This document shows, piece by piece, positions 6,490 to 50,134 of a DNA stretch of 64,000 bases. Under the pieces are notes generated by a model, which was not told the DNA's origin, searched no databases, and worked only from the letters and a program-made list of their open reading frames with translations. This stretch comes from Platerodrilus igneus (taxonomy: Eukaryota > Arthropoda > Insecta > Coleoptera > Lycidae). Positions within the stretch are counted from its first letter, which is position 1. Every line of letters starts with the position of its first letter. The stretch lies in the NCBI GenBank assembly GCA_036346225.1, contig JARFIW010001747.1, forward strand, positions 124,001 through 188,000, given 5' to 3'. The translations under genes were made by a program, and so were the position numbers.

Positions 6490-6704
6490 TTGACGATTAT
6501 GTATTACTAGCTAAAGAGAAGCATGGCTATAATGAGGTACAAGCATTGGGTATGCTGTTTTGGAATGACTATGACATTAATCAAACGGTAAAGGATATAG
6601 CTTGTTTTTCACCTAAACCTGCTAAATGGTCCGAAGAAGATGTAGATTTATGTGAACAAGTGTTTGAATGTCTTAATGAACGCTTTAATGAAATTAAACA
6701 AATG
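6490..6704 (+). CDS. CoRest: CoREST/RCOR-like corepressor, exon 3 (ELM2 end and SANT1 start)
   Basis: After acceptor TATTTGTAG the frame restores exactly (phase 1 to 1) and ends in phase 0 at ATG then GTATGT. It encodes DDYVLLAKEKHGYNEVQALG, then MLFWNDYDINQTVKDIACF, then PKPAKWSEEDVDLCEQVF. These are the CoREST hallmark AKEKHGYNxxQALGMLFW, the ELM2 C-terminus, and the first helix of SANT1. Exons 1-3 total 489 nt (163 codons) with no stop. SANT1 is cut at its expected internal junction, so at least one more exon is needed. A 22.7-kb transposon starts 28 bp after this exon. No convincing SANT1 remainder, coiled coil or SANT2 is seen after that transposon in the window. The gene may be a diverged paralogue, may continue beyond the window, or may be broken. 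Confidence 0.85.
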
Positions 6705-6723: not shown

Positions 6724-6732
6724 ATATTATAG
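6724..6732. repeat. Target-site duplication of the giant element (left)
   Basis: ATATTATAG here is repeated exactly at 29398-29406, directly outside inverted repeats starting ATGTGGCTGAAG. Nine base pairs is the usual duplication length of Mutator-like and Foldback elements. Confidence 0.85.
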
Positions 6733-7020
6733 ATGTGGCTGAAGTTACATTCAGATTCATATTCACATTTATTTTTAATCCCGTCCAGTTCCAGTGGACC
6801 AAATCAATACCTATATGGAAAAAACTTAAAATTAAAATCAAGTTCTTCTACCATCGATACAATGTTAAAAAACACCAAAACTACTACAAAGCTGCCGCAT
6901 TATATCAATCCACACGAAAACAAAATCGCAGGGTACATTAATCTCCAAATATAGCAATGAAAATCAACATCCAAACCAGGGGTTACATCAAGATGGGAAC
7001 AGGAAAATCATTCTTCAGCC
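6733..7020 (+). repeat. Left terminal inverted repeat, non-satellite part
   Basis: 288 bp, matching 29110-29397 in inverse orientation with scattered substitutions. One frame stays open across it and shows motifs TKSIPIW and IKFFYHRYNVKK, loosely like the rest of a CoREST SANT1 domain (DKSI...VKFYY). A candidate acceptor (CCCGTCCAG before 6796) would keep phase 0 with exon 3. The ORF is also open in the right arm. Whether this is captured exon material or chance is unresolved. Confidence 0.75.
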
Positions 7021-10000
7021 AAACGGTGCGTGGTATCAACTAGCCATAAATTGCAAAATAATTCTTAAACAAATAGAAACTTTACATAAAAATATTAGAC
7101 GATTTGAAAGGGGATGAAGGGTGGTAGTTAAATACCCCATCATAATAAAAAATGAATATCTCCTAAACGGTGCGTTGTATCAACTAGCGGTAAATTGCAG
7201 AATAATCCTCAGGCCCATAGGTACCTTCCACAAAAATATCAGGCGATTTGAAAGGGGATGAGGGGGGAAGTTAAATACCTCAGCACAATAAAAAATGAAA
7301 ATCTCCTAAACGGTGCGTTGTACCAACTAGCGGTAAATTGCAGAATAATCCTTAGCCCCATAGGTACCTTCCACAAAAATAGCAGGCGATTTGAAAGGGG
7401 AAGAAGGAGGTAGTTAAATACCCCAACACAATAAAAAATGAATATCTCCTAAACGGTGAGTTGTTTCAACTAGCGGTAAATTGCAGAATAATCCCTAGGC
7501 CCATAGGTACCTTCCACTAAAATATCAGGCGATTTGAAAGGGGTGGGGTGGGGGGGTAGTTAAATACCCCATTATAATAAAAAATGAATATCTCCTAAAC
7601 GGTGAGTTGTATCAACTAGCGGTAAATTGCAGAATAATCCTTATGCCCATAGGTACTTTCCACAAAAATATCAGGCGATTTGAAAGGGGGAGAGGGAGGC
7701 GGAGTTAAATACTCCATCATAATAAAAAATGAATACCTCCTAAATGGTGCGTTGTATCAACTAGCGGTAAATTGCAGAATAATCTTTAGGCCCATAGGTA
7801 CCTTCCACAAAAATATCAGGCGATTTGAAAGGGTGGAGGGGGGTAGTTAAATACCCCATCATAATAAAAAATGAATATCTCCTAAATGGTGCGTTGTATC
7901 AACTAGCGGTAAATTGCAGAATAATCTTTAGACCCATAGGTACTTTCCACAAAAATATCAGGCGATTTGAAAGGGGGAGAGGGGGGGAGTTAAATACTCC
8001 ATCATAATAAAAAATGAATATCTCCTAAATGGTGCGTTGTATCAACTAGCGGTAAATTGCAGAATAATCCTTAGGCCCATAGGTACCTTCCACAAAAATA
8101 TCAGGCGATTTGAAAGGGTAGAGGGGGGTAGTTAAATACCCCATCATAATAAAAAATGAATATCTCCTAAATGGTGCGTTGTATCAACTAGCGGTAAATT
8201 GCAGAATAATCCTTATGCCCATAGGTACCTTCCACAAAAATATCAGGCGATTTGAAAGGGGATGAGGGGAGGTAGTTAAATACCCCAACATAATAAAAAA
8301 TGAACATGTCCTAAACGGTGCGTTGTATCAACTAGCGGTAAATTGCAGAATAATCCTTAGGCCCATAGGTACCTTCCACAAAAATATCAGGCGATGTGAA
8401 AGGGTAGAGGGGGGTAGTTAAATACCCCAACACAATAAAAAATGAATATCTCCTAAACGGTGCGTTGTATCAACTAGCGGTAAATTGCAGAATAATCCTT
8501 AGACCCATAGGTACTTTCCACAAAAATATCAGGCGATTTGAAAGGGGGAGAGGGGGGGTAAATATTCCATCAAAATAAAAAATGAATATCTCCTAAATGG
8601 TGCGTTGTATCAACTAGCGGTAAATTGCAGAATAATCCTTAGGCCCATAGGTACCTTCCATAAAAATATCAGGCGATTTGAAAGGGGATGAAGGGGGGTA
8701 GTTAAATACCCCAACACAATAAAAAATGAACATTTAAACGGTGCGTTTTATCAACTAGCGGTAAATTGCAGAATAATCCTTAGGCCCATAGGTACCTTCC
8801 ACAAAATATCAGGCGATTTGAAAGGGGAACAGGGGGGGTAGTTAAATACCCCAACACAATAAAAAATGAATATCTCCTAAACGGCACGTTGTATCAACTA
8901 GCAGTAAATTGCAGAATAATCCTTAGGCCCATAGGTACCTTCCACAAAAATGGCAGGCGATTTGAAAGGGGATGACGGGGGTATTTAAATACCCCATCAT
9001 AATAAAAAATGAATATCTCCTAAATGGTGCGTTGTATCAACTAGCGGTAAATTGCAGAATAATTCTTAGGCACCTTTCTTAAAAATATCAGGCGATTTGA
9101 AAGGGGTTTGTGGGCGTAGTTAAATACCCCAACACAATAAAAAATGAATATCTCCTAAACGGCACGTTGTATCAACTAGCAGTAAATTGCAGAATAATCC
9201 TTAGGCCCATAGGTACCTTCCACAAAAATGGCAGGCGATTTGAAAGGGGATGACGGGGGTATTTAAATACCCCATCATAATAAAAAATGAATATCTCCTA
9301 AACGGTGTGTTGTATCAACTAGCGGTAAATTGCAGAATAATTCTTAGGCCCATAGGTACCTTTCTTAAAAATATCAGGCGATTTGAAAGGGGTTTGTGGG
9401 TAGTTAAATACCCCAACACAATAAAAAATGAATATCTCCTAAACGGTGAGTTGTATCAACTAGCAGTAAATTGCAGAATAACCCCTAGGCCCATAGGTAC
9501 CTTCCACTAAAATATCAGGCGATTTGAAAGGGGTTGAGGGGGGTAGTTAAATATCCCATTATAATAAAAAATGAATATCTCCTAAACGGTGAGTTGTATC
9601 AACTAGCGGTAAATTGTAGAATAATTCTTTAGCCCATTGGTACCTTTCACAAAAATATCAGGCGATTTGAAAGGGTAGAGGGGGGTAGTTAAATACCCCA
9701 TCATAATAAAAAATGAATATCTCCTAAATGGTGCGTTGTATCAACTAGCGGTAAATTGCAGAATAATCCTTATGCCCATAGGTACTTTCCACAAAAATAT
9801 CAGGCGATTTGAAAGGGGGAGAGGGAGGGGGAGTTAAATACTCCATCATAATAAAAAATGAATACCTCCTAAAAGGTGCGTTGTATCAACTAGCGGTAAA
9901 TTGCAGAATAATCCTTAGGCCCATAGGTACCTTCCACAAAAATATCAGGCGATTTGAAAGGGGTTTGAGGGGAGGTAGTTAAATACCCCAACATAATAAA

Positions 10001-13000
10001 AAATGAACATGTCCTAAACGGTGCGTTGTATCAACTAGCGGTAAATTGCAGAATAATCCTTAGGCCCATAGGTACCTTCCACAAAAATATCAGGCGATGT
10101 GAAAGGGGTAGAGGGGGGGTAGTTAAATACCCCAACACAATAAAAAATGAATATCTCCTAAACGGTGCGTTGTATCAACTAGCGGTAAATTGCAAAATAA
10201 TCCTTAGGCCCATAGGTACCTTCCATAAAAATATCAGGCGATTTGAAAGGGTAGAGGGGGGTAGTTAAATACCCCATCATAATAAAAAATGAATATCTCC
10301 TAAATGTTGCGTTGTATCAACTAGCGGTAAATTGCAGAATAATCCTTAGGCCCGTAGGTACCTTCCACTAAAATATCAGGCGATTTGAAAGGGGTTGGGG
10401 GTGGTAGTTAAATACCCCATTATAATAAAAAATGAATATTTCCTAAACGGTGAGTTGTATCAACTAGCGGTAAATTGTAGAATAATCCTTTAGCCAATAG
10501 GTACCTTTCACAAAAATATCAGGCGATTTGAAAGGGGCTGAAGGGGGGTGGTTAAATACCCCAACACAATAAAAATGAACATTTAAACGGTGCGTTTTAT
10601 CAACTAGCGGTAAATTGCAGAATAATCCTTAGGCCCATAGGTACCTTCCACAAAAATATCAGGCGATTTGAAAGGGGAACAGGGGGGGTAGTTAAATACC
10701 CCATCTTAATAAAAAATGAAAATCTCCTAAACGGTGCGTTGTATCAACTAGCGGTAAATTGCAGAATAATCCTTAGGCCAATAGGTACCTTCCACAAAAA
10801 TATCAGGCGATTTGAAAGGGGATGAGGGAGGTAGTTAAATACCCCAACACAATAAAAAATGAATATCTCCTAAATGGCGCGTTGTATCAACTAGCGGTAA
10901 ATTGCAGAATAATCCTTAGGCCCATAGGTACCTTCCACAAAAATAGCAGGCGATTTGAAAGGGGATGAAGGGGGTAGTTAAATACCCCATCATAATAAAA
11001 AATGAATATCTCCTAAACGGTGTGTTGTATCAACTAGCGGTAAATTGCAGAATAATTCTTAGGCCCATAGGTACCTTTCTTAAAAATATCAGGCGATTTG
11101 AAAGGGGTTTGTGGGGGTAGTTAAATACCCCAACACAATAAAAAATGAATATCTCCTAAACGGTGAGTTGTATCAACTAGCAGTAAATTGCAGAATAATC
11201 CCTAGGCCCATAGGTACCTTCCACTAAAATATCAGGCGATTTGAAAGGGGTTGAGGGGGTAGTTAAATATCCTATTATAATAAAAAATGAATATCTCCTA
11301 AACGGTGAGTTGTATCAACTAGCGGTAAATTGTAGAATAATCCTTTAGCCCATAGGTACCTTTCACAAAAATATCAGGCGATTTGAAAGGGGCTGAAGGG
11401 GGGTAGTTAAATACCCCAACACAATAAAAAATGAACATCTCCTAAACGGTGCGTTGTATCAACTAGCGGTAAATTGCAGAATAATCCTAATGCCCATAGT
11501 TACCTTCCTCAAAAATATCAGGCGATTTGAAAGGGGTTGAGGGGAGGTAGTTAAATATCCCAACATAATAAAAAATGAACATGTCCTAAACGGTGCGTTG
11601 TATCAACTAGCGGTAAATTGCAGAATAATCCTTAGGCCCTTAGGTACCTTCCACAAAAATATGGGGCGATTTGAAAGGGTAGAGGGGGGGGGGAGTTAAA
11701 TACTCCAACATAATAAAAAATGAATATCTCCTAAATGGTGCGTTGTATCAACTAGCGGTAAATTGCAGAATAATCCTTAGGCGCATAAGTACTTTCCACA
11801 AAAATATCAGGCGATTTGAAAGGGGTTGAGGGGGGTAGTTAAATATCCCATTGTAATAAAAAATGAATATCTCCTAAACGGTGCGTTGTATCAACTAGCG
11901 GTAAATTGCAGAATAATTCTTAGGCTCCTAGGTACCTTCCTCAAAAATATCAGGCGATGTGAAAGGGGTTGAGGGGTGTAGTTAAATACCTCAACACAAT
12001 AAAAAATGAATATCTCCTAAACGGTGCGTTGTATCAACTAGCGGTAAATTGCAGAATAGTCCTTAGGCCCATAGGTACCTTGCACAAAAATATCAGGCGA
12101 TTTGAAGGGGGAAGAGGGGGGGTAGTTAAATACCCCAACTCAATAAAAAATGAAAATCTCCTAAACGGTGCGTTGTATCAACTAGCGGTAAGTTGCAGAA
12201 TAATCCTTAGGCCCATAGGTACCTTCCACAAAAATAACAGGCGATTTGAAAGGGGGTGAAGGGGTAGTTAAATACCCCAACAGAATAAAAAATGAATATC
12301 TCCTAAACGGTGCGTTGTATCAACTAGCGGTAAATAGCAGAATAATCCTTAGGCCCATAGGTACCTTCCTCAAAAATATCAGGCGATTTGAAAGGGGATG
12401 AAAGGGGTAGTTAAATACCCCAATACAATAAAAAATGAATATCTCCTAAACGGTGAGTTGTATCAACTAGCGGTAAATTGCTGAATAATCCTTAGGCCCA
12501 TTTGTACCTTTCACAAAAATATCAGGCGATTTGAAAGGGGATGAGGGGGTAGTTAAATACCCCAACACGATAAAAAATGAAAATCTCCTAAACGGTGCGT
12601 TGTATCAACTAGCGGTAAATTGTAGAATAATTCTTAGGCCCATAGGTACCTTCCACAAAAATAGCAGGCGATTTGAAAGGGGAAGAAGGAGGTAGTTAAA
12701 TACCCCATCATAATAAAAAATGAATATCTCCTAAACGGTGAGTTGTTTCAACTAGCGGTAAATTGAAGAATAATCCCTAGGTCCATAGGTTCCTTCCACT
12801 AAAATATCAGGCGATTTGAAAGGGGTGGGGGTTGGGGTAGTTAAATATCCCATTACAATAAAAAATGAATATCTCCTAAACGGTGAGTTGTATCAACTAG
12901 CGGTAAATTGTAGAATAATCCTTTAGCCCATAGGTACCTTTCACAAAAATATCAGGCGATTTGAAAGGGGTTGAAGGGGGGTAGTTAAATACCCCAAAAA

Positions 13001-16000
13001 AATAAAAAATGAACATCTCCTAAACGGTGCGTTGTATCAACTAGCGGTAAATTGCAGAATAATCCTTAGACCCATAGGTACTTTCCACAAAAATATCAGG
13101 CGATTTGAAAGTGGGAGAGGGGGTAGTTAAATACCCCAACACAATAAAAAATGAATATCTCCTAAACGGTGCGTTGTATCAACTAGCGGTAAATTGCAGA
13201 ATAATCCTTATGCCTATAGGTACCTTCCACAAAAATATCAGGCGATTTGAAAGGGGCTGAAGGGGGGTAGTTAAATACCCCAACACAATAAAAAATGAAT
13301 ATCTCCTAAATGGTGCGTTGTATCAACTAGCGGTAAATTGCAGAATAATCCTTAGGCCCATAGGTACCTTCCACAAAAATATCAGGCGATTTGAAAGGGG
13401 ATGAAGGGGTAGTTAAATACCCCAACATAATAAAAAATGAATATCTCCTAAACGGTGCGTTGTATCAACTAGCGGTAAATTGCAGAATAATCCTTAGGCC
13501 CATAGGTACCTTTCCACAAAAATATCAGGCGATTTGAAAGGGGTTGAGGGGGTAGTTAAATACCCCAAACATAAAAATGAAATCTCCTAAACGGTGCGTT
13601 GTATCAACTAGCGGTAAATTGCAGAATAATCCTTAGCCCATAGGTACCTTTCCACAAAAATATCAGGCGATTTGAAAGGGGAAGGAGGTAGTTAAATACC
13701 CCAACATAATAAAAAAGGAATATCTCCTAACCGGTGCGTTGTATGAACTAGCGGTAAATTGTAGAATAATCCTTAGGCACATAGGTACCTACCACAAAAA
13801 TATCAGGCGATTTGAAAGGGGCGAGGGTGGGTAGTTAAATACCCATCATAATAAAAATGAATATCTCCTAAACGGTGCGTTGTATCAACTAGCGGTAAAT
13901 TGCAGAATAATCCTTAGCCCATAGGTACCTTTCCACAAAAATATCAGGCAATTTGAAAGGGGTTGAAGGGGGTAGTTAAATACCCCAACATAATAAAAAT
14001 GAACATCTCCTAAACGGTGCGTTGTATCAACTAGCGGTAAATTGCAGAATAATCCTTAGACCCATAGGTACTTTCCACAAAAATATCAGGCGATTTGAAA
14101 GGGGGAGAGGGGGAGTTAAATACTCCATCATAATAAAAAATGAATATCTCCTAAATGGTGCGTTGTATCAACTAGCGGTAAATTGCAGAATAATCCTTAG
14201 GCCCATTGGTACCTTCCACAAAAATATCAGGCGATTTGAAAGGGTGGAGGGGGGTAGTTAAATACCTCATCATAATAAAAAATGAATATCTCCTAAATGG
14301 TGCGTTGTATCAACTAGCGGTAAATTGCAGAATAATCCTTAGACCCATAGATACTTTCCACAAAAATATCAGGCGATTTGAAAGGGAGAGGGGGAGTTAA
14401 ATACCCCATCATAATAAAAAATGAATATCTCCTAAATGGTGCGTTTTATCAACTAGCGGAAAATTGCAGAATAATCCTTAGGCCCATAGGTACCTTCCAC
14501 AAAAATATCAGGCGATTTGAAAGGGGATGAGGGGGTAGTAAAATACCCTAACACAATAAAAATGAATATCTCCTAAACGGTGCGTTTGTATCAACTAGCG
14601 GTAAATTGCAGAATAATCCTTAGGCCCATAGGTACCTTCCACAAAAATATCAGGCGATTTGAAAGGGGATGAGGGGTAGTTAAATACCCATCATAATAAA
14701 AATGAATATCTCCTAAATGGTGCTTTGTATCAACTAGCGGTAAATTGCAGAATAATCCTTAGGCCCATAGGTACCTTCCACAAAAATATCAGGCGATTTG
14801 AAAGGGGTTGAGGGGGGAAGTTAAATACCTCAACACAATAAAAAATGAATATCTCCAAAACGGTGAGTTGTATCAACTAGCGGTAAATTGCAGAATAATC
14901 CTTAGCCCATAGGTACCTTCCACAAAAATATCAGGCGATTTGAAAGGGGTTGAGGGGGTAGTTAAATACCCAACACAATAAAAATGAATATCTCCTAAAC
15001 GGTGCGTTGTATCAACTAGCGGTAAATTGCAGAATAATCCTTAGCCCATAGGTACCTTCCACAAAAATATCAGGCGATTTGAAAGGGGTTGAGGGGGTAG
15101 TTAAATACCCATCATAATAAAAATGAATATCTCCTAAACGGTGCGTTGTATCAACTAGCGGTAAATTGCAGAATAATCCTTAGGCCCATAGGTACCTTCC
15201 ACAAAAATATCAGGCGATTTGAAAGGGGTGAGGGGTAGTTAAATACTCCAACATAATAAAAATGAATATCTCCTAAACGGTGCGTTGTATCAACTAGCGG
15301 TAAATTGCAGAATAATCCTTAGCCCATAGGTACCTTCCACAAAAATATCAGGCGATTTGAAAGGGGTTGAAGGGGGTAGTTAAATACCCAACACAATAAA
15401 AATGAATATCTCCTAAACGGTGCGTTGTATCAACTAGCGGTAAATTGCAGAATAATCCTTAGCCCATAGGTACCTTCCACAAAAATATCAGGCGATTTGA
15501 AAGGGGTTGAGGGGGTAGTTAAATACCCCAACAAATAAAAATGAATATCTCCTAAACGGTGCGTTGTATCAACTAGCGGTAAATTGCAGAATAATCCTTA
15601 GCCCATAGGTACCTTTCCACAAAAATATCAGGCGATTTGAAAGGGGATGAGGGGGTAGTTAAATACCCACATAATAAAAATGAATATCTCCTAAACGGTG
15701 CGTTGTATCAACTAGCGGTAAATTGCAGAATAATCCTTAGGCCCATAGGTACCTTGCACAAAAATATCAGGCGATTTGAAAGGAGTGAAGAGGGGTAGTT
15801 AAATACCCCAACACAATAAAAAATGAATATCTCCTAAACGGTGCGTTGTATCAACTAGCGGTAAGTTGCAGAATAATCCTTAGGCCCATAGGTACCTTCC
15901 ACAAAAATAACTGGCGATTTGAAAGGGGATGAAGGGGGTAGTTAAATACCCCAACATAATAAAAATGAATATCTCCTAAACGGTGCATTGTATCAACTAG

Positions 16001-17634
16001 CGGTAAATAGCAGAATAATCCTTAGCCCATAGGTACCTTTCCACAAAAATATCAGGCGATTTGAAAGGGGATGAAGGGGTAGTTAAATACCCCAACAAAT
16101 AAAAATGAATATCTCTAAACGGTGCGTTGTATCAACTAGCGGTAAATTGCAGAATAATCCTTAGCCCATAGGTACCTTTCCACAAAAATATCAGGCGATT
16201 TGAAAGGGGTTGAAGGGGGGTAGTTAAATACCCCAACACAATAAAAAATGAACATCTCCTAAACGGTGCGTTGTATCAACTAGCGGTAAATTGCAGAATA
16301 ATCCTTAGGCCCATAGGTACCTTCCACAAAAATATCAGGCGATTTGAAAGGGGAAGAGGGGGGTAGTTAAATACTCCATCATAATAAAAAATGAATATCT
16401 CCTAAATGGTGCGTTGTATCAACTAGCGGTAAATTGCAGAATAATCCTTAGGCCCATAGGTACCTTCCACAAAAATATCAGGCGATTTGAAAGGGGTAGA
16501 GGGGGTAGTTAAATACCCCAACATAATAAAAATGAATATCTCCCAAACGGTGCGTTGTATCAACTAGCGGTAAATTGCAGAATAATCCTTAGGCCCATAG
16601 GTACCTTCCACAAAAATATCAGGCGATTTGAAAGGGGTTGAAGGGGTAGTTAAATACCCCAACAGAATAAAAATGAATATCTCCTAAACGGTGCGTTGTA
16701 TCAACTAGCGGTAAATAGCAGAATAATCCTTCGACCCATAGGTACTTTCCACAAAAATATCAGGCGATTTGAATGGGGGAGAGGGGGGGGCGTTAAATAC
16801 TCCATCATAATAAAAAATGAATATCTCCTAAATGGTGCGTTGTATCAACTAGCGATAAATTGCAGAATAATCCTTAGGCCAATAGGTACCTTCCACAAAA
16901 ATATCAGGCGATTTGAAAGGGGATGAGGGGAGGTAGTTAAATACCCCAACACAATAAAAAATGAATATCTCCTAAACGGTGCGTTGTATCAACTAGCGGT
17001 AAGTTGCAGAATAATCCTTAGGCCCATAGGTACCTTCCACAAAAATAACTGGCGATTTGAAAGGGGATGAAGGGGGTAGTTAAATACCCCAACATAATAA
17101 AAAATGAATATCTCCTAAACGGTGCATTGTATCAACTAGCGGTAAATAGCAGAATAATCCTTAGACCCATAGGTACTTTCCACAAAAATATCAGGCGATT
17201 TGAATGGGGGAGAGGGGGGGGCGTTAAATACTCCATCATAATAAAAAATGAATATCTCCTAAATGGTGCGTTGTATCAACTAGCGATAAATTGCAGAATA
17301 ATCCTTAGGCCAATAGGTACCTTCCACAAAAATATCAGGCGATTTTAAAGGGGTTGAGGGGGTAGTTAAATACCCCATCATAATAAAAAATGAATATCTC
17401 CTAAACGGTGTGTTGTATCAACTAGCGGTAAATTGCCGAATAATCCCTAGGCCCATAGGTACCTTCCACAAAAATATCAGGCGATTTGAAAGGGGAAGAA
17501 GGGGGGATAGTTAAATACTCCATCATAATAAAGAATGAGTATCTCTTAAATGGTGCGTTGTATCAACTAGCGGTAAATTGCAGAATAATCCTTAGGCCCA
17601 TAGGTACCTTCCACAAAAATATCAGGCAATTTGA
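7021..17634 (+). repeat. ~142-bp satellite array, left arm (about 74 monomers)
   Basis: Head-to-tail monomers with a GCGGTAAATTGCAG core recurring every ~142 bp. The first monomer (7021-7120) is clearly diverged; the rest are close to consensus. Each unit includes a G-rich stretch followed by a short hairpin, GGGGTAGTTAAATACCCC or variants. Higher-order structure is visible. A variant with ACATGTCC recurs at 8304, 10007 and 11579 (12 and 11 monomers apart). A variant with CTGGCGATTTG recurs at 15911 and 17049 (8 monomers apart). Many monomers stay open in one frame and give peptides such as LLNGALYQLAVNCRIILRPI; these are array by-products. Between about 13560 and 16200 homopolymers are consistently shorter. 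Confidence 0.97.
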
Positions 17635-20379
17635 TATCATGAATAACAATTAAAGATTCATTCATTCAAGGTGAAGACTTGAACAAATCTTTGATTAACA
17701 TGTTTGGTGTAATTTACGCTGCCGGTAAAATCTAACCTCTCCATACCGTTTTGGAAGTCGATGGCAGTGGATATAGGTGTGATTTTCAGAATGCACAATT
17801 CTGTAGACTCTATGTGCTAACAGAAGTTTTCTTTCAGTTTTGCCTAACACGTATACATCAATTAACTTATTTAAAGAATAATCCATAAACAAAAGAAAAA
17901 TTTTGAAATGAACAGGAAAAATGCAAGCTTAATTTTGACACATGACTTTTATCTTCGCAATTGGTTTACATAGATACCGTATATTTGATTTCTCCAATGC
18001 TCTACCCAAAGGTACCACATTCGTCAGGAGGTGAGTTCTATTTCCCTGGGAATTTTAATTTTGCCAAACCCGTGCTGTTCCAAGCAAGGTAGGGATCTTT
18101 AACGTAAGTGACAACACACATCTGGCCTACAATTTACTACCAAATTAGACCTAAACTGTGAACTTATTGTTTGTTGAAACCCTAAATTATTTTACTATCA
18201 ATGAACAGAGTACCTATTTGTATAGAGGGTTGGGTTAACAAGTACTTACCTGCAACTCTAATTAAAATTTTTACCTGTTGGAAGGTCAGTGATTCATATT
18301 ATGGGTTTTGTCTCATGTTCCCGAATGTCTTAAAAATAAATGTTCCAGTCTTCTCAGTTAACTTGCTCCTTGCTGTAGTTTATCTGTATCGTATAAATTA
18401 TTTTAAATTTGGAGTCGAAAATAGTTTTTTAAATTGCCTGATTGTATTCGTAAAAGCTATCGTATAGTTTGCGTAATATACTATTGTATTATTGAGTATG
18501 TGATGTGACTAAACCTCAAAGAGATCTATTTAAACCAAAACCTTATAGTGACTTTTGATCCAAGTGGCGACATTCTAAAAACTTTTTAGTGATAGTTTCG
18601 TATTTACTTTATATTTTTAAGTTGAATTACCGTTAGATTTACAATTTTTAAACTTTTTAAACAAATTTCAAGATACAGAAATTCTGGTGTGGTTTACCCT
18701 GCTCTATGTGGTGCCTTGAAAATAAAGGATAATATAAAAACCGCATGCAAATTTATATAATTATCAAAAGACAATTTAATTTATTAACGGAATTAATTCA
18801 AGCAGTTCAGTTGCCAGCGAAATCTACCCGCTGCGGTTGTAATAGCGAGGAATTGATATAAACAGACGAAGAGTAGAGTTTTGTTCTTTGTTCCGATATA
18901 TTAAGTACGTTGAAAATACTGCTTCTTTCTGCTTTTGACAATAGTGAGAATTAATGCGGGATTAATTTTCGTATTGTTCATGAACAAGCACGGCATGTTT
19001 TTAGTTGATTTTCTGTTGGAAATAAAAGCGGTAAAGCTTGTTAAACTCGAGGCACGTGTGTTTTACGGAACATTTGACGGACGGTTTTATTGCTTACGCG
19101 TGCCTACTAATTGTTTTTAGTTGTTTTTCTTGTGAGATAAATGCTTTAAGGAACATTTGACGGACTTACTTTAGTGATACGCGTACTTTACTAATTTGTG
19201 GTTTTAGTTGTTTGTCTTGTGAAATAATAGTCGTAGAACTTGCTAAACTGACCGATTCTTTCTTTAGAATTAATGTGTGTGCGATCTAGTCTAGTGTCCC
19301 TTTGTTTTATCAGATTAGTGCATACTTTGGATTATTTAAATACAGTGGATACTGTAGTTTCTGCATTTTTCTAACACCAAAGAATCTAAAATAGATCATT
19401 GCTTGCGCGAATTTCGTTATTTGTGAAATATAACAGATTACCGGTTTACAAAGGTATTGGTTGAAGTTTCTCACTGCTTGTTGGAGGTTTATGAAAATAA
19501 TATACATTTGATCCCAGTTGAAATTAAACTAGTGCTACAAAATATTTCGAAATTATTGTCTCAGGAAATAGAATTAACAAGGAATTTATCAATGCTACAT
19601 AGTTCCGTCGCGTGATGGTGTCTGCTGCTAACCCCAGTGAAATGCGTAGGTGTGATTAGTGTGACGTGTGATAAGTTCCATCAACACCCTCACAGTCCAG
19701 GGTGAAGTGCTTCATTAGCGTAGGACATCGTGAATCTCACACTTCCGTTGCAAGGAAGCGTTGCTGAAGGACTTTTGTAAGTTGAACTATTTCTTACTTG
19801 TTATTACTTTAAATATCTATCCGTTGCTTTACCATATCTTTGTCGTTCTGATACCTTTTACAAAAGACTTGCATGATATTTTAAAACATAAGAAAAAAAA
19901 GAAAGAAAGAAAGAAAGATCAATACTACTGAATTACTCATATCAATTGTGTCTTACCTATTTATTTTTTTTAACATTTTGTCTGATTCATGTTTAATTGG
20001 TGTGTGAGGAAACGTTTCTGCTACTCCCCAATATTACCTCACTTTGTACTAAACATTTTTGTACTGCTTTTACCGTTGTTATATTATATAGATTATCCAA
20101 ACTGTTTTTTTTTTACATTCTACAAAGTACTGAATAATTTAGCCTTATCATTGCTGCTATGCTTTTTCTTTTTTTTTCAGGTTTGCTTGACTATTTTTCT
20201 TGCACTAACTCCTTAGAGCCGTGTACATTGTATGTTGGTCTGCTTTCTACAACCCCCCCTAATCTCCGATTGAGCCCGGTCATTTCTTTGATTTTCTTTG
20301 TGTTACGCACGGCTACGAGCCAACGTAGCATAACTTTGGCGCTCGAACAGGGACTGCCACGAATAACGTAACATAACAA
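17635..20379. other. Core of the giant element, 5' non-coding part
   Basis: Unique sequence between the left array and the transposase. It contains a truncated SINE-like segment (about 17972-18140), an imperfect ~100-bp tandem duplication at about 19030-19230 (GGAACATTTGACGGAC twice), and a (GAAA)n run near 19890-19918. A polypyrimidine tract with CAG acceptor ends at 20180, and another possible acceptor, TGCCTTAG, lies near 20390. A 5' untranslated exon and promoter of the transposase gene are expected here but cannot be placed. Confidence 0.5.
17972..18140 (-). mobile_element. SINE fragment (3'/central domain only)
   Basis: Matches the SINE at 49372-49671 over its non-tRNA part, including CTCTACCCAAAGGTACCACA and GCAAGGTAGGGATCTTTAAC. 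The tRNA-derived head is missing. Orientation is taken from the complete copy. It lies inside the giant transposon, so it inserted there or was carried along. Confidence 0.7.
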
Positions 20380-20502
20380 ACTGCCTTAGTATCTGGCAAT
20401 GGTCTTGTAGATCTTTATACCGAGTCACAGACATTTTCCAATAGTGCTATCTGTGACAACCAACATCATGAAAACGCATCAGCGACAAAGTCAGATGCTT
20501 TC

Positions 20503-21936
20503 ATGTTAGCGGTTAATAAACATTTTAATCAAGTGCCAATAGCGGAGAAAAAATTGAGCTCTACATACTCGAACCAAATCGAGGTTAGTATTGCACGGGA
20601 TATAATAATATCTTTGCAGGATTTAAAAACGCACCGCAAGAAATATTTACTGTCGGTAGGAATACATTGTGTGATAACCTTTCAAGGTGGGCATCAGCTA
20701 CTTAAAAGAACTGGACCCATTCACACTTTATATTGTAAGTGTAAACATTCCAATTGCCGTAAATTCAAAATCAGCATTTATGGGACTGACACTCAATGGC
20801 GGATTTTAGTTCAATTTGACAAATTGCAGGACAATCATACAGGTGAAGAGTATTCTTATCAAGTTAGGGGTGCTAAATGCAACGAAATGAAGGAAGCGCT
20901 TTTGCAGAATATGCCTAACAAAGTACGCAAAGATGCCATTAAAATGCTTAAGCGTGAAACTTTCTTAGAAGGAAATTGGCAACAACTTAGATCCTTATCA
21001 GTTTATCAGAAAGTAAAATCTGAAGCTAGGCTAAACCTGGATTTAAACCAGAGTACTTATTTAGACGTCATTCTAAAAGCACATCAAGAAACAAATAAGT
21101 ATATTCAACAACCAGACGGTAACTTAGTTGTTTATTTATATTCGCGCCAGCAAATTGATTGCCTAATTCCCAGAGGGAAGAAAATTGATATTTATTTTGA
21201 TGCCACGGGTTCTGTTGTACGATCTCCAGAATTAGTTTCGAGAAAGCGGGTTCTTTATTACGCTGCTGTAGTGAACATAGATGAAAAAATTGTTCCCGTA
21301 GCAGAATTAATTTCATCCAAACATGACTCTGCAACTATATCAGCGTTTTTCATTAACTTTAAGCATTTCGTAACAGTAACATGTATTAGAACATGGCCTC
21401 TCTTTAATGTTGTTATTGTTGATTTTAGCTTTACATTGATAAATTCTATTTGTCTTGGTTTCAACGAAATGACTCTATATTCATATTTAAATATTATGCA
21501 CAAATTTGTTACTAATTCTTTAGATCGAAAGGATTTACTACAAATAATACCGATAAGATCTTGTTATGCCCATTTTGTGAAAATGATCAAAGATAAACTG
21601 TCCAAAATTAAAATAGGTAAGCAAGAAAAAAATATAATTACAGATTGTGTGGCCATTTTAATGCAGTGCAACGAGTTTGAAGAGTTATCTCGGAGTTTCA
21701 AAGCATTTATAAAAATTTTAGTCTCTCCTTTTGAGACTGATTCATTTTCAAAATCTTATAAACTTTTGCTGCTCCAAAAAGTAAAACTATTATCATCCAA
21801 GGATTTATTAAACTTAAACGTGCAAGTTGATCACGTGTCAATTTCTGAATGTGAATCTGATGATAGTGAATATGTCCGGGTAGGTATACAACTTCACCGT
21901 TTTATAAACATTTTCAAAAATTATATAGTGAAATAG
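20503..21936 (+). CDS. DDE transposase of the giant element, N-terminal and catalytic part
   Basis: 477-codon ORF, open upstream in frame to about 20380, so the true start may be earlier or spliced. A zinc-binding pattern at residues 78-112 (CKCKHSNC...DNH) resembles the FLYWCH/WRKY-GCM1-type DNA-binding fingers found in front of Mutator-like transposases. First catalytic Asp candidate: D233 in IYFDATGSVVR. Second: D307 in FNVVIVDFSFT. A Cys/His pair (SCYAHFVK) follows, as in several DDE families. The third acidic residue lies in the next segment (22041-22352). The ORF closes by stop at 21934. A 53-nt intron (GTATAC to ATAG, about 21888-21940) would join VRV to EEEIKLD in frame; a simple frameshift is the alternative. 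KDZ/Zisupton-type assignment was considered, but the 9-bp target duplication favours Mutator-like. Confidence 0.72.
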   Translation: MLAVNKHFNQVPIAEKKLSSTYSNQIEVSIARDIIISLQDLKTHRKKYLLSVGIHCVITFQGGHQLLKRTGPIHTLYCKCKHSNCRKFKISIYGTDTQWRILVQFDKLQDNHTGEEYSYQVRGAKCNEMKEALLQNMPNKVRKDAIKMLKRETFLEGNWQQLRSLSVYQKVKSEARLNLDLNQSTYLDVILKAHQETNKYIQQPDGNLVVYLYSRQQIDCLIPRGKKIDIYFDATGSVVRSPELVSRKRVLYYAAVVNIDEKIVPVAELISSKHDSATISAFFINFKHFVTVTCIRTWPLFNVVIVDFSFTLINSICLGFNEMTLYSYLNIMHKFVTNSLDRKDLLQIIPIRSCYAHFVKMIKDKLSKIKIGKQEKNIITDCVAILMQCNEFEELSRSFKAFIKILVSPFETDSFSKSYKLLLLQKVKLLSSKDLLNLNVQVDHVSISECESDDSEYVRVGIQLHRFINIFKNYIVK

Positions 21937-22040
21937 AAGAGGAGATAAAACTTGATGCCAATTGTAAATCACAAGTAAAGAATTCTCTGAGGTGTGAGGC
22001 ATTTGCGGATTATTTTTTATACTACACTGCCTTCGTTCCA

Positions 22041-22352
22041 ATGTGGTCAGGAATTTTATCACCATTTTCTTTGGAAACCCGCTACAGTAATGCCAACGTT
22101 GAATGTTGGTTCAAAATCGTTAAAAAGGATATTGTGGAAGGTCAAAGTAATTTAAAAGTTGGTCGCTTTATAGATAAATTGAAAAACTATTTGGATGTTC
22201 AATTAAAGTCTGTTGAAATGAATATCAAACCAACGCCAAAAAGGAAAACCCCTAAAACGACTGTAAAGATGACGATATTGGTAAGCCTTTTGCCGAAGAA
22301 GTTTGGCGACCAAAAACTAAATCGCAAAACCACTTTATTTTTCCATCATTAG
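22041..22352 (+). CDS. DDE transposase, C-terminal catalytic segment
   Basis: The frame is open from about 21950, before the first Met at 22041. It reads FVPMWSGILSPF, then RYSNANVECWFKIVKK, with Glu at 22101-22103 as the probable third catalytic residue, then GRFIDKLKNYLDVQLK and a basic tail. It needs either the short intron or a frame change to connect with 20503-21936. Near 22262 the reading switches frame again: DDDIGKPFAEEVWRPKTK continues in the frame of the downstream protease. The two are therefore probably one fusion protein interrupted by an indel. Confidence 0.65.
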   Translation: MWSGILSPFSLETRYSNANVECWFKIVKKDIVEGQSNLKVGRFIDKLKNYLDVQLKSVEMNIKPTPKRKTPKTTVKMTILVSLLPKKFGDQKLNRKTTLFFHH

Positions 22353-22378
22353 TAGCTATAGAGAAAAAAGCATGTAGT

Positions 22379-22960
22379 ATGAATCCAAATACTAACAACT
22401 CCAAAAAGAAGAGTCCACTAATATTAGAATCGAATATTTCGAAAAAATCAGAATTAGCATGTAGTGTGCCTGGATCTCATGAAAACCTCATAGAACTACC
22501 GGTTCATGATATTCCCCATGATATGGCGCTAACGAATTCTTTATTTTTAAATACTAATTATTATATAAACGCCGCAATAAAAAATGTCAATTTTATTGTA
22601 TGCGAAATGGTAAATAAGGAGAGATATACATTTTTAATATCAAGTACAGATTATAGAACACTTGTATCTAGATATAATCATGATTACAACTTTGAAGCTT
22701 CAGACACATCTCGATGGTTGACCGATTACTGCATTGATTCAGCGGCGATTGCATTACTTAGGACTAACGATTCTATTTACTATATCGATTGCATATCGTC
22801 ACATATTGCGTTCCACTCTCAAGAGAAACGATTTGTCAGCAGCATACCAGCCTATACCACTTTGTTTATGGGGATAAACATACTTTTGCTTACTATTAAT
22901 ATCAATCAATGCCATTGGGCGTTGATTGTATTAGATCTGTACTCAAAAGAATATTATTGA
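22379..22960 (+). pseudogene. Ulp1/SENP-like C48 cysteine protease domain (first half)
   Basis: The frame is open from about 22262 and is in continuity with the transposase apart from one frame change. Family features: W113-L-T-D-Y at the start of the fold (the WLxD motif) and the catalytic His in CHWALIVLD (H179). The expected catalytic Asp (LDPSS, codon 22964-22966) comes two codons after an in-frame TGA at 22958-22960. A frameshift then separates it from the Cys-bearing part. Ulp1 proteases process SUMO or ubiquitin-like modifiers. In transposons such domains are known from some Mutator-like and KDZ elements, with unclear role. The in-frame stop and frameshift argue this copy is inactive, unless they are consensus errors. 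Confidence 0.72.
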
Positions 22961-22979
22961 CTAGATCCATCTTCAGCGA

Positions 22980-23930
22980 ATGCAAATTGATTCGAGTGAA
23001 ACTGCAAAATTGATTAAAAAGTTTATGACGACACGCAATAGATATCACACACAAAATACCCAAGAATTTCTTAATTTCAGAGAGTGGTCACCAGTACAAA
23101 TAAAAAAATATGCTAAACAAAGGGATTCCTTAAACTGTGGTATATACATAATATATTACATTAAAGTGATTGCCTCACTTAACAATCTTAAGAGGTTTGA
23201 AAATTTACCACGCCACTTATCGTTTGATCCAGAAAAATATAGAATGTTCGTTCAACGTTGCCTCATACTTTATTCAGAATACATGTTTTACAAATGTTTT
23301 ATATGTGATATTCAGTCACGTGAAAATTATATTCAATGCCAAATTTGCCTAAAGTGGGTTCATTTCGAAAACTGTGCTAGACCATTAATTGCTAAAGCTG
23401 TTACTTTTGAAGAAGCAAGTAAAGATGAATTCATTTATGAATGCTCTGGGTGCATTGCTAACAACTTTGTATTATATTCGCCTCCGGAAAACCTGTCCCC
23501 TAGATTTAAACTATCTGACTTTTGGCAAATAAAAAACACGGCGCGTATATCAGAAAATTTTCCGCTAACTATTCTACCTCATCTGACACTAACAAATTTA
23601 GAAATACGCAAACTTTTAATATTACATAGAAAAGACTTACAGAAAACCTATAATAAATCAATTGAATCCACTCTATCTGCAATATATGATGAAGATTCAA
23701 AAAATATATTAAAATTTCTGCAAGAAGACCTATGTAGACTAATTACTAGTGAACTGATGAATGAATTTGATTCTTTGGAAGTAAAACATAGAGAACACTG
23801 TTTTATAGCCATGTGTGTAAACTTCAGTAAAACACTGATTAAATATTTTTATGGGAACGTTGACTTTATAAAAAAAAATAAAGATCAACTTCCAATAGGG
23901 GATCCATCATGGATTTGTAAATCATTTTGA
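22980..23930 (+). pseudogene. Ulp1-like protease C-terminus with PHD-like finger and C-terminal domain
   Basis: 316-codon ORF in another frame from the protease N-half. RDSLNCGIYIIYYI holds the catalytic Cys (codon 23136-23138), completing a His-Asp-Cys set across the break. Residues 106-158 form a C4HC3 pattern: CFIC, then CQIC, then HFENC, then CSGC, with the KWVH core Trp. That is a PHD-type zinc finger, a histone-tail reader in other proteins. The last ~150 residues are Leu-, Lys- and Asn-rich without a recognised fold, ending GDPSWICKSF. AATAAA-like signals follow at 23936. I infer one ancestral protein: zinc finger, DDE transposase, Ulp1, PHD. Confidence 0.68.
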
Positions 23931-24928
23931 AAGAAATAAATGATTATTATTGAGCATGTCATATGTATACACTGACACTAATATGAATTATTCTGCAGTA
24001 TATAAATGAATCTGTTGTTATATCGCTAGGATATTTGTATGTTCTATCGACTTATAATTATAAGGAGTAAAAAATAATAATATTGTATATACGTTCACAC
24101 TTGTGAATAATAAGTTCAGTAAAAACCTATATTATAATATAATTACACCTATTGAAGTCATCAACTAATTTAATGTTGTATTATGTAGAATAAGTGCGGA
24201 GAGTGCTTTACATTTAATAGATTTCTACAATTAAATAAAATATATGTGTACAATGCCAAAAAGTATGGACTACTAATAATTTCCTTATCTTTGAAAGCAT
24301 TTAATTTTATAATTTAGAAAAGAACAGTAAATTAGAAAACATCTAGAACTCAGGTCAACCTGCTTTAGAAGTTTTTGTATAACTGAAGAAGTAACAACGA
24401 ATTAGAGATCAGGCTGAGCAGGTAAGTTGATTCCTACAGATACAGCAGGGGTTTAAAAAATAACCGACATTGATGATAATATGTATTATGTAAACTTCTA
24501 TAAAAGAATTCGGTTACAACTTCTTGAAAAGGAATGAACCAGATGTATTCAGTATTGTTTACTGGATACGAAAACTTTATAACCACAAGTTTCAATTGTA
24601 ACTAACGCCTGCAAGGCATTTCTCTTATCTCTAATAATTGATAATTAAATAATAAACAGTATTTATACTACCACAATTGTTTTCTAGCGGTGCGACATTA
24701 AATATAAGGACTTAAAAGCAGCACATTTGGTGATTTTTCTAATTATGGTTGAGCGATTCTAACTAAATTTATAAACAGTTAAGTATGATAGTTGAGCAAA
24801 ATACGAAAATTTGACCAACTAAAACATATCTTGGAGTTGGCACAATTCAGCCGCATATCAGTTCTATTAATCTTTTCAGAAAGTTGTAAGAAAATCGATG
24901 AAAGTATCGTTCTATAAACGGGTAGTTG
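23931..24928. other. Core of the giant element, 3' non-coding part
   Basis: AT-rich, about 1 kb, no ORF of substance. AATAAA-like signals occur near 23936 and 24235. The right satellite array begins at its end, in the middle of a monomer. Confidence 0.5.
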
Positions 24929-27900
24929 TAAATTACCGCTACTTGATACAACGCACCGTTTAGGAGATATTCATTTTTTATTGTGTTGGGTTATTTAACT
25001 ACCCCCCTCATCTCCTTTCAAATCGCCTGATATTTTTGTGGAAGGTACGTATGGGCCTAAGGATTATTCTGCAATTTACTGCTTGTTGATACAACGCACC
25101 GTTTAGGGATATTCATTTTTATTGTGTTGGGGTATTTAACTACCCCCCCTCATCAACTTTCAAATCGCCTGATATTTTTGTGGAAGGTACCTATGAACCT
25201 AAGGATTATTCTGCAATTTACCACTAGTTGATACAACGCACCATTTAGGAGATATTCATTCTTTATTGTGTTGGGGTATTTAACTACCCCCCCTCTTCCT
25301 CTTTCAAATCGCCTGATATTTTTGTGGAAGGTACCTATGGGCCTAAGGATTATTCTGCAATTTACCGCTAGTTGATACAACGCACCATTTAGGAGATATT
25401 TATTTTTTATTATGTTGGGGTATTTAAGTACCCCTTCATCCCCTTTCAAATCGCCTGATATTTTTGTGGAAGTTACCTATGGGCCTAAAGATTATTCCGC
25501 AATTTACCGCTAGTTGATACAACACACCGTTTAAGAGATATTTATTTTTTATTGTGTTGAGGTATTTAACTACCCCCTCATCCCCTTTCAAATCGCCTGA
25601 TATTTTTGTGGAAAGTACCTATGAACCTAAGGATTATTCTGCAATTTACCACTAGTTGATACAACGCACCATTTAGGAGATATTCATTCTTTATTGTGTT
25701 GGGGTATTTAACTACCCCCCTCTTCCTCTTTCAAATCGCCTGATATTTTTGTGGAAGGTACCTATGGGCCTAAGGATTATTCTGCAATTTACCGCTAGTT
25801 GATACAACTCACCGTTTAGGAGATATTCATTTTTTATTGTGTTGGGGTATTTAACTACCCCCTCATTCCATTTCAAATTGTCTGATATTTTTGAGGAAGG
25901 TACCTATGGGCCTAAGAATTATTCTGCAATTTACCGCTAGTTGATACAACGCACCGTTTAGGAGATATTCATTTTTTATTATGATGGGGTATTTAACTAC
26001 CCCCCTTCATCACCTTTCAAATCGCCTGATATTTTTGTGGAAGGTACCAATGGGCTTAAGGATTATTCTACAATTTACCGCTAGTTGATACAACGCATCG
26101 TTTAGGAGATGTTCATTTTTATTGTGTTGGGGTATTTAACTACCACCCTCATCCCTTTTCAAATCGCCTGATATTTTTGTAGAAGGTACCTATGGGTCTA
26201 AGGATTATTCTGCAATTTACCGCTTGTTGATACAACGCACCGTTTAGGAGATATTCATTTTTTATTGTGTTGGGTATTTAACTACCCCCCCTCATCAACT
26301 TTCAAATCGCCTGATATTTTTGTAGAAGGTACCTATGGGCCTAAGGATTATTCTGCAATTTATCGCTAGTTGATACAACTCAATGTTTAGGAGATATTCA
26401 TTTTTTATTCTGTTGGGGTATTTAACTACCCCCCTCATCCCCTTTCAAATCGCCTGTTATTTTTGTGGAAGGTACCAATGGGCTTAAGGATTATTCTACA
26501 ATTTACCGCTAGTTGATACAACGCACCGTTTAGGAGATGTTCATTTTTTATTGTGTTGGGGTATTTAACTACCACCCTCATCCCTTTTCAAATCGCCTGA
26601 TATTTTTGTAGAAGGTACCTATGGGCCTAAGGATTATTCTGCAATTTACCACTAGTTAATTCAACGCACCGTTTAAGAGATATTAATTTTTATTGTGCTG
26701 GGATATTTAACTACCCTCTTCATCCTCTTTCAAATCGCCTGATATTTTTGAGGAAGGTACCTATGGGCTTAAGGATTATTCTACAATTTACCGCTAGTTG
26801 ATACAATGCACTGTTTAGAAGATATTCATTTTTTATTGTGTTGGGGTATTTAACTACTCCCCCCCTCATCCCCTTTCAAATCGCCTGATATTTTTGTGGA
26901 AGGTACCTATGGGTCTAAGGATTATTCTACAATTTACCGCTAGTTAATACAACGCACCATTTAGGAGATATTCATTTTTTATTGTGTTGGGGTATTTAAC
27001 TACTTCCCTTCATCCCCTTTCAAATCGCCTGATATTTTTGTGGAAGGTACCTATGGGCCTAAGGATTATTCTGCAATTTACCATTAGTTAATTCAACGCA
27101 CCGTTTAAGAGATATTCATTTTTTATTGTGTTGGGTATTTAACTACCCTCTCATCCCTTTCAAATCGCCTGATATTTTTGTAGGAAGGTACCTATGGGCC
27201 TAAGGATTATTCTGCAATTTACCGCTAGTTGATACAACTGCACTGTTTAGGAGATATTCATTTTTATTTGTTGGGGTATTTAACTACCCCCCTTCATCCC
27301 CTTTTAAATCGCCTGATATTTTTGTGGAAGGTGCCTATTTGACCAAGGATTATTCTACAATTTACCGCTAGTTGATACAACGCACCGTTTAGGAGATATT
27401 CATTTTTTATTGTGTTAGGGTATTTAACTACCCCCTTCATCCTCTTTCAAATCGCCTGATATTTTTGTGGAAGGTACCTATGGGCCTAAGGATTATTCTG
27501 CAATTTACCGCTAGTTGATACAACGCACCGTTTAAGAGATATTCATTTTTATTGTGTTGGGTATTTAACTACCCTCCTTCATCCTCTTTCAAATCGCCTG
27601 ATATTTTTGTAGGAAGGTACCTATGGGCCTAAGGATTATTCTACAATTTACCGCTAGTTGATACAACTGCACTGTTTAGAAGATATTCATTTTTATTGTT
27701 GGGGTATTTAACTACTCCCCCCCTCAACCCCTTTCAAATCGCCTGATATTTTTGTGGAAGGTACCTATGGGCCTAAGGATATTCTACAATTTACCGCTAG
27801 TTGATACAACGCACCGTTTAGGAGAAATTCATTTTTCATTGTGTTGGGGTATTTAACTACACCCTCAACCCTTTTCAAAACGCCAGATATTTTTGTGGAC

Positions 27901-29109
27901 GGTACCTATGGGCCTAAGAATTATTCTGCAATTTATCGCTAGTTGATACAACACACCGTTTAGGAGATATTCATTTTTATTGTGTTCGGATATTTAACTA
28001 CCCACCCTCGCCCCTTTCAAATCGCCTGATATTTTTGTGGTAGGTACCTATGTGCCTAAGGATTATTCTACAATTTACCGCTAGTTGATACAACGCACCG
28101 GTTAGGAGATATTCCTTTTTTATTGTGTTAGGTTATTTTACTACCCCCTTCATCCTCTTTCAAATCGCCTGATATTTTTGTGGTAGGTACCTGTGGGCCT
28201 AAGGATTAGTCTGCAATTTACCGCTAGTTAATTCAACGCACCGTTTAGGAGATATTCATTTTTATTGTGTTAGGTTATTTAACTACTCCCTTCATCCCCT
28301 TTCAAATCGCCTGATATTTTTGTGGAAGGTACCTATGGGCCTAAGGATTATTCTGCAATTTACCGCTAGTTGATACAACGCACCGTTTAGGAGATATTCA
28401 TTTTTTATTGTGTTGGGGTATTTAACTACCCCCCTCAACCCCTTTCAAATCGCCTGTTATTTTTGTGGAAGGTACCTATGGGCCTAAGGATTATTCTACA
28501 ATTTACCGCTAGTTAATACAACGCACCGTTTAGGAGATATTTATTTTTTATTGTGTTGGGGTTTTTAACTACTTCCCTTCATCCCCTTTCAAATCTCCTG
28601 ATATTTTTGTGGAAGGTACCTATGGGCCTAAGGATTATTCTGCAATTTACCGCTAGTTGATACAACGCACTGTTTATAGGAGATATTCATTTTTTATTGT
28701 GTTAGGGTATTTAACTACCCTCCCTCATCTCCTTTCAAATTGCCTGATATTTTTGTGGAAGGTACGCATGGGCCTAAGGATTATTCTGCAATTTACCGCT
28801 AGTTAATACAACGCGCCGTTTAGGAGATATTAGTTTTTTATTGTGTTGGAGTATTTAACTACTTCCCTTCATTCTCTTTCAAATCGCCTGATATTTTTGT
28901 GGAAGGTACCTATGGGCCTAAGAATTATTCTGCAATTTACTGCTAGTTGATACAACGCACCGTTTAAAAGATATTCATTTTTTATTGTGTTGGGGTATTT
29001 AACTACCACTCTTCGTCCCCTTTCAAATCGTCTAATATTTTTATGTAAAGTTCCTATTTGTTTAAGGATTATTTTGCAATTTATGGCTAGTTGGTACCAC
29101 GCACCGTTT
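24929..29109 (-). repeat. ~142-bp satellite array, right arm (about 29 monomers)
   Basis: Same monomer as the left arm in opposite orientation, ending in the diverged monomer next to the terminal repeat (29030-29109), mirroring 7021-7120. Local duplications are present; for example the ACCAATGGGCTTAAGG variant recurs near 26044 and 26472 (3 monomers apart). Homopolymer-shortened monomers lie at about 27120-27980. Pairwise substitutions look more frequent than in the left arm, but I have not counted them. Confidence 0.96.
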
Positions 29110-29397
29110 GGCTGAAGAATGATTTTCCTGTTCCCATCTTGATGCAACCCCTGGTTTGGATGTTGATTTTCTTTGCTATATTTGGAGATTAATGTACCCT
29201 GCGATTTTGTTTTCGTGTAGATTGATTTAATGCGGCAGCTTTGTAGTAGTTTTGGTGTTTTTTAACATTGTATCGAAGGTAGAAGAACTTGATTTTAATT
29301 TTAAGTTTTTTCCATATAGGTATTGATTTGGTCCGCTGGAACTGGGCGGGATTTAAAATAAATGTGAATATGAATCTGAATGTAACTTCAGCCACAT
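29110..29397 (-). repeat. Right terminal inverted repeat, non-satellite part
   Basis: Inverse copy of 6733-7020 with the same length (288 bp) and a few substitutions (for example CCCGCCCAG here, CCCGTCCAG on the left). Immediately followed by the 9-bp duplication ATATTATAG. Confidence 0.85.
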
Positions 29398-29406
29398 ATA
29401 TTATAG
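29398..29406. repeat. Target-site duplication of the giant element (right)
   Basis: Exact copy of 6724-6732. Confidence 0.85.
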
Positions 29407-33436: not shown

Positions 33437-33619
33437 GTGTTTTAAATTGTTCAAAGTGGCAAACAGAAAAGGTCTGTTTAACAAAGTTCTTGGAAAACTT
33501 CCTTCAAATGCTTATGAAAATGCATGCCACTCAAATAATCACGTTTCACTGTAACTTAAAAATAACATTCCATCAATATCGACCTTAAATAGATATTTAG
33601 AAACGCATAAGGGTACTCT

Positions 33620-35660: not shown

Positions 35661-35690
35661 TACACACAGCGGGTTTACCCCTCGTTATTA

Positions 35691-50073: not shown

Positions 50074-50134
<61 letters not shown>
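50031..50134. repeat. Compound microsatellite (TG)n-(CT)n-(TA)n
   Basis: GTGTGTATG-type repeats, then CT repeats, then a TA run that abuts the LTR at 50135. Confidence 0.92.

Follow-up and report, generated by a model that had tools for sequence, protein, structure and literature searches.

Can two opposed satellite arrays and the coding sequence between them belong to one mobile element, and if so, of which kind? The question is raised by a 64,000-nucleotide stretch of the genome of the beetle Platerodrilus igneus (contig JARFIW010001747.1, positions 124,001 to 188,000), referred to below as the window. An original prediction made from the letters alone had described a 22.7-kb Foldback/Mutator-like transposon at this locus. 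The analysis given here indicates that the structure very probably represents a large cut-and-paste DNA transposon of a Rehavkus-like (Mutator-related) kind, with arms built of satellite arrays, and that this copy of it is defective.

Duplications, inverted ends and satellite arms

The element has a length of 22.7 kb. The limits given originally, 6724..29406, have the flanks right but take in both target-site duplications; the transposon proper is 6733-29397. The duplications are perfect 9-bp copies of ATATTATAG, as predicted, and directly abut the two ends (6724..6732 and 29398..29406). Besides these two copies, at 6724 and 29398, the window contains no other ATATTATAG on either strand. Among 200,000 random pairs of 9-mers from the window, 25 were identical. 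Next to the duplications lie the expected terminal inverted repeats (TIRs) of 288 bp: the left one, on the plus strand, starts with ATGTGGCTGAAG (6733..7020), and the right one is located on the minus strand (29110..29397). After inversion they are identical in 280 of 288 positions. The inner edge of the left TIR carries an inverted copy of TGGCTGAAG (TIR positions 4-12 and 281-289).

Each TIR continues inwards into tandem units of a satellite, about 74 in the left arm (7021..17634, plus strand) and about 29, inverted, in the right arm (24933..29109, minus strand). Tandem Repeats Finder yielded a period of 143 and 74.6 copies for the left and 29.2 copies for the right array, and core hits numbered 75 and 30, respectively. 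The arrays, their opposite orientation around the core, and the arm sizes of 10.6 and 4.2 kb are as claimed, but the period is 143 bp and not about 142 bp. The mean identity of units is 0.899 in the left arm, 0.887 in the right arm and 0.886 between the arms, compared to 0.94 for the outermost pair of units. Within the left arm, no recent block duplications of at least 350 bp at 96% were detected; its best block score of 0.168 is below the top value of 200 permutations (0.173). A site common to the TIR and the satellite unit was looked for and not found, and the single-strand folding of one unit is no more stable than that of shuffled sequences.

The arms could in principle be an artefact of assembly, in which one satellite array was mirrored by a fold-back or an inversion. 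A fold-back was named in advance as a refuting outcome, and a hairpin chimera would indeed yield mirror-image arms of one repeat. However, such a chimera would give near-identical arms. The ends differ in 8 of 288 positions, the arms comprise 74 versus 29 units with a mean identity of 88.6% between them, and many other loci show this layout with flanks and duplications that differ between them. An artefact is therefore extremely improbable. The observation made in the window, i.e. duplications, inverted ends, inverted arrays and a coding core, is confirmed.

A family that has moved many times

The host assembly of 2.71 Gb was searched for further copies. With the TIR as query, the best 40 of 108 candidates were scored. 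A search with the terminal 34 bp, allowing for at most 3 mismatches, identified 97 ends (50 + 47), compared to 0 for the reversed control. From these, 31 end pairs, each on a single contig, were put together by eye; 35 ends were left unpaired. Perfect 9-bp duplications flank 23 of the 31 pairs, and all 23 are different. They are found at 13 of the first 14 pairs and at 10 of the further 17, of which two match at 8/9 and five at a lower level. Among the latter five, C1522 has an 8-bp duplication and C1114 a displaced one, as judged by eye. When the ends of the 17 pairs were cross-paired as a control, none of 272 combinations reached 8/9 or more. Thus, the search for other loci with the same ends and duplications had a positive outcome: the family has moved many times, and a transposon that duplicates 9 bp and has foldback-like satellite arms recurs across the genome. 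It counts against this reading that eight of the 31 end pairs are without a perfect duplication and that one is without any. This exception among the first 14 pairs (C1136:202034-248096; L033, L034) consists of inverted ends 46 kb apart with no common duplication; they may be the ends of separate insertions or the result of a rearrangement.

The 23 copies with perfect duplications are 2.3 to 29.5 kb long (median 14.5 kb), and 17 of them exceed 10 kb. The longest may hold nested insertions; for C1136b this is suggested by extra open frames. In the nine other core-bearing copies fetched whole, the cores are 95-99% identical to that of the window copy over the matched parts. At the other extreme, C12 (L023) is a bare snap-back of 2313 bp; it has a perfect 9-bp duplication and no core, and its arms comprise 7 and 6 units.

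The number of unit hits per arm varies from 6 to 75, as determined for 11 whole copies, including that of the window, and two partly sampled arms of C593. The lengths of the two arms of a copy are uncorrelated (rho -0.006; 10 copies oriented by their transposase). In contrast, the outer phase is fixed: in each of the 24 measured arms, the first unit is found at 291-292 bp, counted from the end. Each unit contains an island of 32 bp with a conservation of 0.989 versus 0.931 elsewhere; the 495 units of this profile were collected with an anchor outside the island, because an overlapping anchor would bias it.

These arms might alternatively be host satellite that was invaded by a small transposon, or two inverted blocks of host satellite with a transposon between them, and thus not be part of the mobile unit. 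To this question also belongs the distribution of the satellite. A 429-bp array query gave at least 338 matches, with the best 24 of 191 candidates scored, and the array was present on at least 22 contigs. Of the 22 that were listed, 17 have an outward element end no more than 1.6 kb from the array, C1097 has one at a distance of 6.2 kb, and C907 and C1136 contain other element ends. The remaining two, C567 and C873, have no end within 3 mismatches on the contig, which would suit host arrays; the samples taken at the array edges were still inside the array. Against this explanation, the duplications sit outside the arms in 23 pairs and the distance of the first unit is constant. It is therefore hardly credible that the arms are foreign to the mobile unit. 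The route from transposon to satellite DNA that was put forward originally had already been proposed for Tetris (PMC4079207), and the seeding of free arrays is not supported by the listed contigs, most of which have an element end close to the array.

The two ends of a copy resemble each other

The identity between the two ends averages 0.984 within 13 copies and 0.969 between copies. In 10,000 random pairings of ends, the observed within-copy mean was never reached. For the 10 oriented copies, the identity between copies is the same for same-side and for opposite-side ends (0.9702); the ends therefore keep no side identity. The outermost units follow this trend (0.971 within and 0.954 between copies), and the whole arms are nearly flat (0.896 versus 0.892). 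The simplest inference is that gene conversion between the inverted arms homogenises the ends. This interpretation is weakened by the finding that the own partner is the closest relative for only 12 of 26 ends, and the effect of homogenisation is therefore partial. The two ends of the window copy are 0.972 identical.

The coding core and its transposase

The core that had been predicted is present in the window copy but broken: its protein is split over four open stretches in three frames, all on the plus strand. The main part of the transposase (20377..21936) contains DATGSVV and VDFS, with the putative first two catalytic Asp residues, and a CxxH motif; it has about 112 N-terminal residues fewer than the protein of copy C1080. 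In another frame (21870..22352) follows NANVECWFK with the putative catalytic Glu. The first half of an Ulp1-like protease (22256..22960; CHWALIVLD) is closed by an in-frame stop. Its second half (QRDSLNCG) and a PHD-like C4HC3 finger are in a different frame (22965..23930); these domains were identified on the intact copy. The lesions are frameshifts near 21.88, 22.26 and 22.98 kb and the stop at 22958. The left part of the core (17635..18833, plus strand) is homologous to other copies but lacks two pieces that are present in C1080, one of about 890 bp and one of about 145 bp that includes the start codon. Judging by these lesions, the window copy is dead.

Among the 10 core-bearing copies examined, C1080 is the sole one with the whole protein in one open frame (1297 codons from the first ATG; L015:4823-8713, minus strand). 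By its motifs and domain matches, this frame is predicted to encode a DDE-type transposase, an Ulp1 protease and a PHD-like finger. Peptidase_C48 (Ulp1) was assigned by Pfam to residues 944-1051 with 37.6 bits, compared to a cut-off of 20.7. The C4HC3 finger matches the PHD of ARID4 with an expectation value (E) of 0.0022. The PHD part has a weak side, as the Pfam PHD family is below the cut-off in the piece from the window (E 0.052) and unlisted for the intact protein. The Ulp1/PHD-bearing transposase gene postulated originally is therefore found on a sister copy. P0003, a homologue of 991 residues on a public contig, is 44% identical over 69% of a 519-residue query and aligns in order across the first three of the four stretches in the window. 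It contains DATGSVV, a second Asp, CxxH and a Glu within a WFK motif; the Asp and Glu residues are the putative catalytic ones. A homologue search using the Ulp1/PHD piece and a scan of viral contigs for relatives gave no hits.

Several results do not support the assignment as a transposase of the Mutator type. The intact protein has no match to the MULE transposase family of Pfam up to an E of 1. The assignment of an RNase-H fold is based on the motifs and, in a relative, on a single weak hit to ZSWIM1-3_RNaseH-like (E 0.0093, below the cut-off). A structure of P0003 predicted from a six-row alignment was of no use, with a mean predicted local distance difference test score (pLDDT) of 34.

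Sister families with unrelated satellites

A query of the host assembly with P0003 gave at least 57 matches, based on the best 46 of 580 candidates, and flanks were sampled for four loci that do not belong to the window family (C1070, C671, C909 and C869). The open frame of C1070 extends over 1330 codons from its ATG, and its protein is 33% identical to that of C1080 and contains DATGS, a second Asp, QxxxxxCG and a C4HC3 pattern. Its arms are formed by an inverted satellite of 144-146 bp with at least 32 and about 20 units. The same satellite constitutes the inverted arms of C671 (at least 21 and about 29 units). At the right-hand limit of their match, C1070 and C671 both terminate in ACGTGGCTGAAGTT, compared to ATGTGGCTGAAGTT in the window family; the terminal GTGGCTGAAGTT is common to these two families, whose ends were read. 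In C909, the satellite of the inverted arms has a unit of 149 bp, which is repeated at least 26 times in one arm and about 16 times in the other; the terminus of C909 was not found in the sampled flanks. Inverted satellite arms are therefore present at three of the four loci, two of which represent one family. The satellites of the three families show no similarity above chance, since the best of six comparisons was equalled by 18 of 200 shuffles. These sister families thus have the layout of the window family, with unrelated satellites of 144-149 bp.

Two observations count against this picture. The protein of C1070 was not matched by the E pattern and the protease H pattern as written. At C869 (L053, L054), tandem arrays with units of 161 and 70 bp lie beside a distant relative of the transposase, and no inverted match was found within the 3 kb sampled per side, which counts against a universal inverted layout. 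With these reservations, we tentatively suggest, on balance with more doubt than confidence, that the arms of this transposase lineage remain inverted satellite arrays, but that their sequence has been exchanged repeatedly for that of an unrelated repeat whose unit is similarly long (143, 144-146 and 149 bp). The terminal GTGGCTGAAGTT would be kept, as in the two families read, the ends would be homogenised, and the arms would change their length independently. If this is true, such elements are mobile factories in which new satellite DNAs arise.

Host site, nested repeat and neighbourhood

The element starts 28 bp within the inferred intron of a gene similar to CoREST (RCOR). The preceding host exon (6393..6704, plus strand; its start is that of the open frame) matches REST corepressor 1 with an E of 3e-18 (query residues 19-105), an ELM2 match lies upstream, and the splice donor ATG|GTATGT was read from the sequence. 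In the three plus frames of 29407-39300 there are no Pfam domains, and the next CoREST-like exon was therefore not located.

Within the core, a nested dispersed repeat of 1541 bp (18834..20374, plus strand) occupies the place of 77 bp that are own to C1080. It contains a UTP15_C-like stretch of 61 codons (19427-19609; Pfam 34.9 bits, cut-off 33.1) and, close to its right end, a string resembling a primer-binding site. A first look at the genome gave 7443 candidates for this repeat, 40 of which were scored at 94-100%, and it is unmatched in the compared loci of the family (ten other copies whole, others in part). Capture of a host UTP15 exon by the transposon was therefore rejected; the stretch belongs to the dispersed repeat.

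Elsewhere in the window, several arrays of a separate tandem repeat with a 76-bp unit, none of them inverted, extend over 32840-43112. Retrotransposon-like pol and integrase frames were recognised by eye at 58292-61079 and 62393-64000, and 58702-60317 is repeated at 62393-64000 with 99.4% identity. A further dispersed repeat occurs, whole or in part, at 479-2029, 50129-51749, 55618-56484 and 61244-62194; three of these contain tandem motifs of 20 bp and 16-17 bp.

Mechanism and significance

The following course of events is proposed. The transposase would recognise an outer terminal motif (A[T/C]GTGGCTGAAGTT), join the two ends and make staggered cuts of 9 bp. Slippage, unequal exchange or template switching in repair may lengthen or shorten the array of a single arm independently of the other, and gene conversion from one inverted arm to the other may keep the outer ends alike, e.g. 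during gap repair after excision. The 32-bp island is a putative protein-binding site that could assist in pairing the ends or serve to load a protein of the host or of the transposon. SUMO or chromatin might be the target of the Ulp1 and PHD parts. The copy in the window was inserted into the CoREST-like intron and decayed afterwards.

The origin of satellite DNAs is an open question. The family described here is mobile, has one or more intact frames, and allows the length and the sequence of its long arrays to be read in each copy separately, the sister families serving as replicates. Birth and growth of arrays and the homogenisation of ends inside a transposon thus become directly testable.

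Comparison with known systems

Foldback elements also have long tandem-repeat inverted ends and 9-bp duplications, both of which are found here. In FB-NOF of Drosophila, the repeat units differ from those described above.

Tetris, a foldback element of Drosophila virilis, makes duplications of 8-10 bp and contains repeats of about 220 bp (TIR-220) that vary in number, form arrays of kb size and were proposed as a source of satellites (PMC4079207). It thus shares long composite ends, tandem units of variable number and kb-size arrays with the window family. By fibre fluorescence in situ hybridisation, some long TIR-220 arrays were located between two element ends, and no array of TIR-220 alone was reported (PMC4079207); long arrays inside a foldback element are therefore not new per se. 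Differences are that no coding copy of Tetris was found and that its complete assembled copies have TIRs of up to 1,735 bp (PMC4079207), whereas here a coding core and assembled arms of up to 10.6 kb are present. Tm1, a Mutator/Foldback element of the Phantom subclass from root-knot nematodes, likewise has 9-bp duplications, composite ends with variable repeat number, and coding as well as non-coding copies. Its repeats, however, comprise 13-15 bp, its elements 1080 and 2593 bp, and the two TIRs of one element are on average 93.15% identical (PMC3169594).

Given these shared composite ends and 9-bp duplications (PMC3169594, PMC4079207), the element could be a Drosophila-type Foldback/NOF or a Phantom-type Mutator rather than a relative of Rehavkus. 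This is rather improbable, as the PHD-like finger and satellite monomers of about 150 bp in inverted ends fit the published description of Rehavkus, and a match to the Pfam MULE family is missing, which also distinguishes the element from canonical MULE/MuDR transposons. Membership in Rehavkus itself is likely, as judged by its published description. According to this description, Rehavkus has a 9-bp duplication, TIRs of 26-400 bp, one open reading frame, a PHD finger, and minisatellites or satellites beside its ends (PMC6446971, PMC10218199). The 9-bp duplications, the 288-bp TIRs outside the arrays, the single frame of 1297 codons with its C4HC3 finger, and the satellite adjoining the ends all correspond. 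In Rehavkus-1_TC of Tribolium castaneum (9.5 kb; Repbase), the 164-bp satellite TCsat23 is located in the inverted termini (PMC6446971, PMC10218199). The proposal of a possibly undescribed lineage consequently has to be given up.

TCsat23 arrays mostly have five and eight units, compared to 6-75 per arm here, and the 9.5 kb of Rehavkus-1_TC contrast with 22.7 kb for the window element and with unrelated satellites in sister families. Arthropod Mutator-like elements (MULEs) are given as 1.4-10.0 kb long (PMC13359780), whereas most copies with perfect duplications are longer here, the longest maybe because of nested insertions. The Ulp1 part is unmentioned in the Rehavkus description consulted, and no literature that combines PHD finger, Ulp1, transposase and Mutator was found. 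Nor was there, in the literature searched, from which Repbase and most subscription papers were absent, a coding element whose assembled arms comprise tens of units, a concerted evolution of the two ends, or a replacement of the satellite between sister families. A smaller and similar layout has thus already been described in a beetle; unusual are the size of the arrays and the recurrence of unrelated arrays in sister families. New, compared to these systems, are a coding element with arms of mutually independent length, the co-evolution of the two ends of one copy, and the repeated replacement of the satellite that the sister families suggest.

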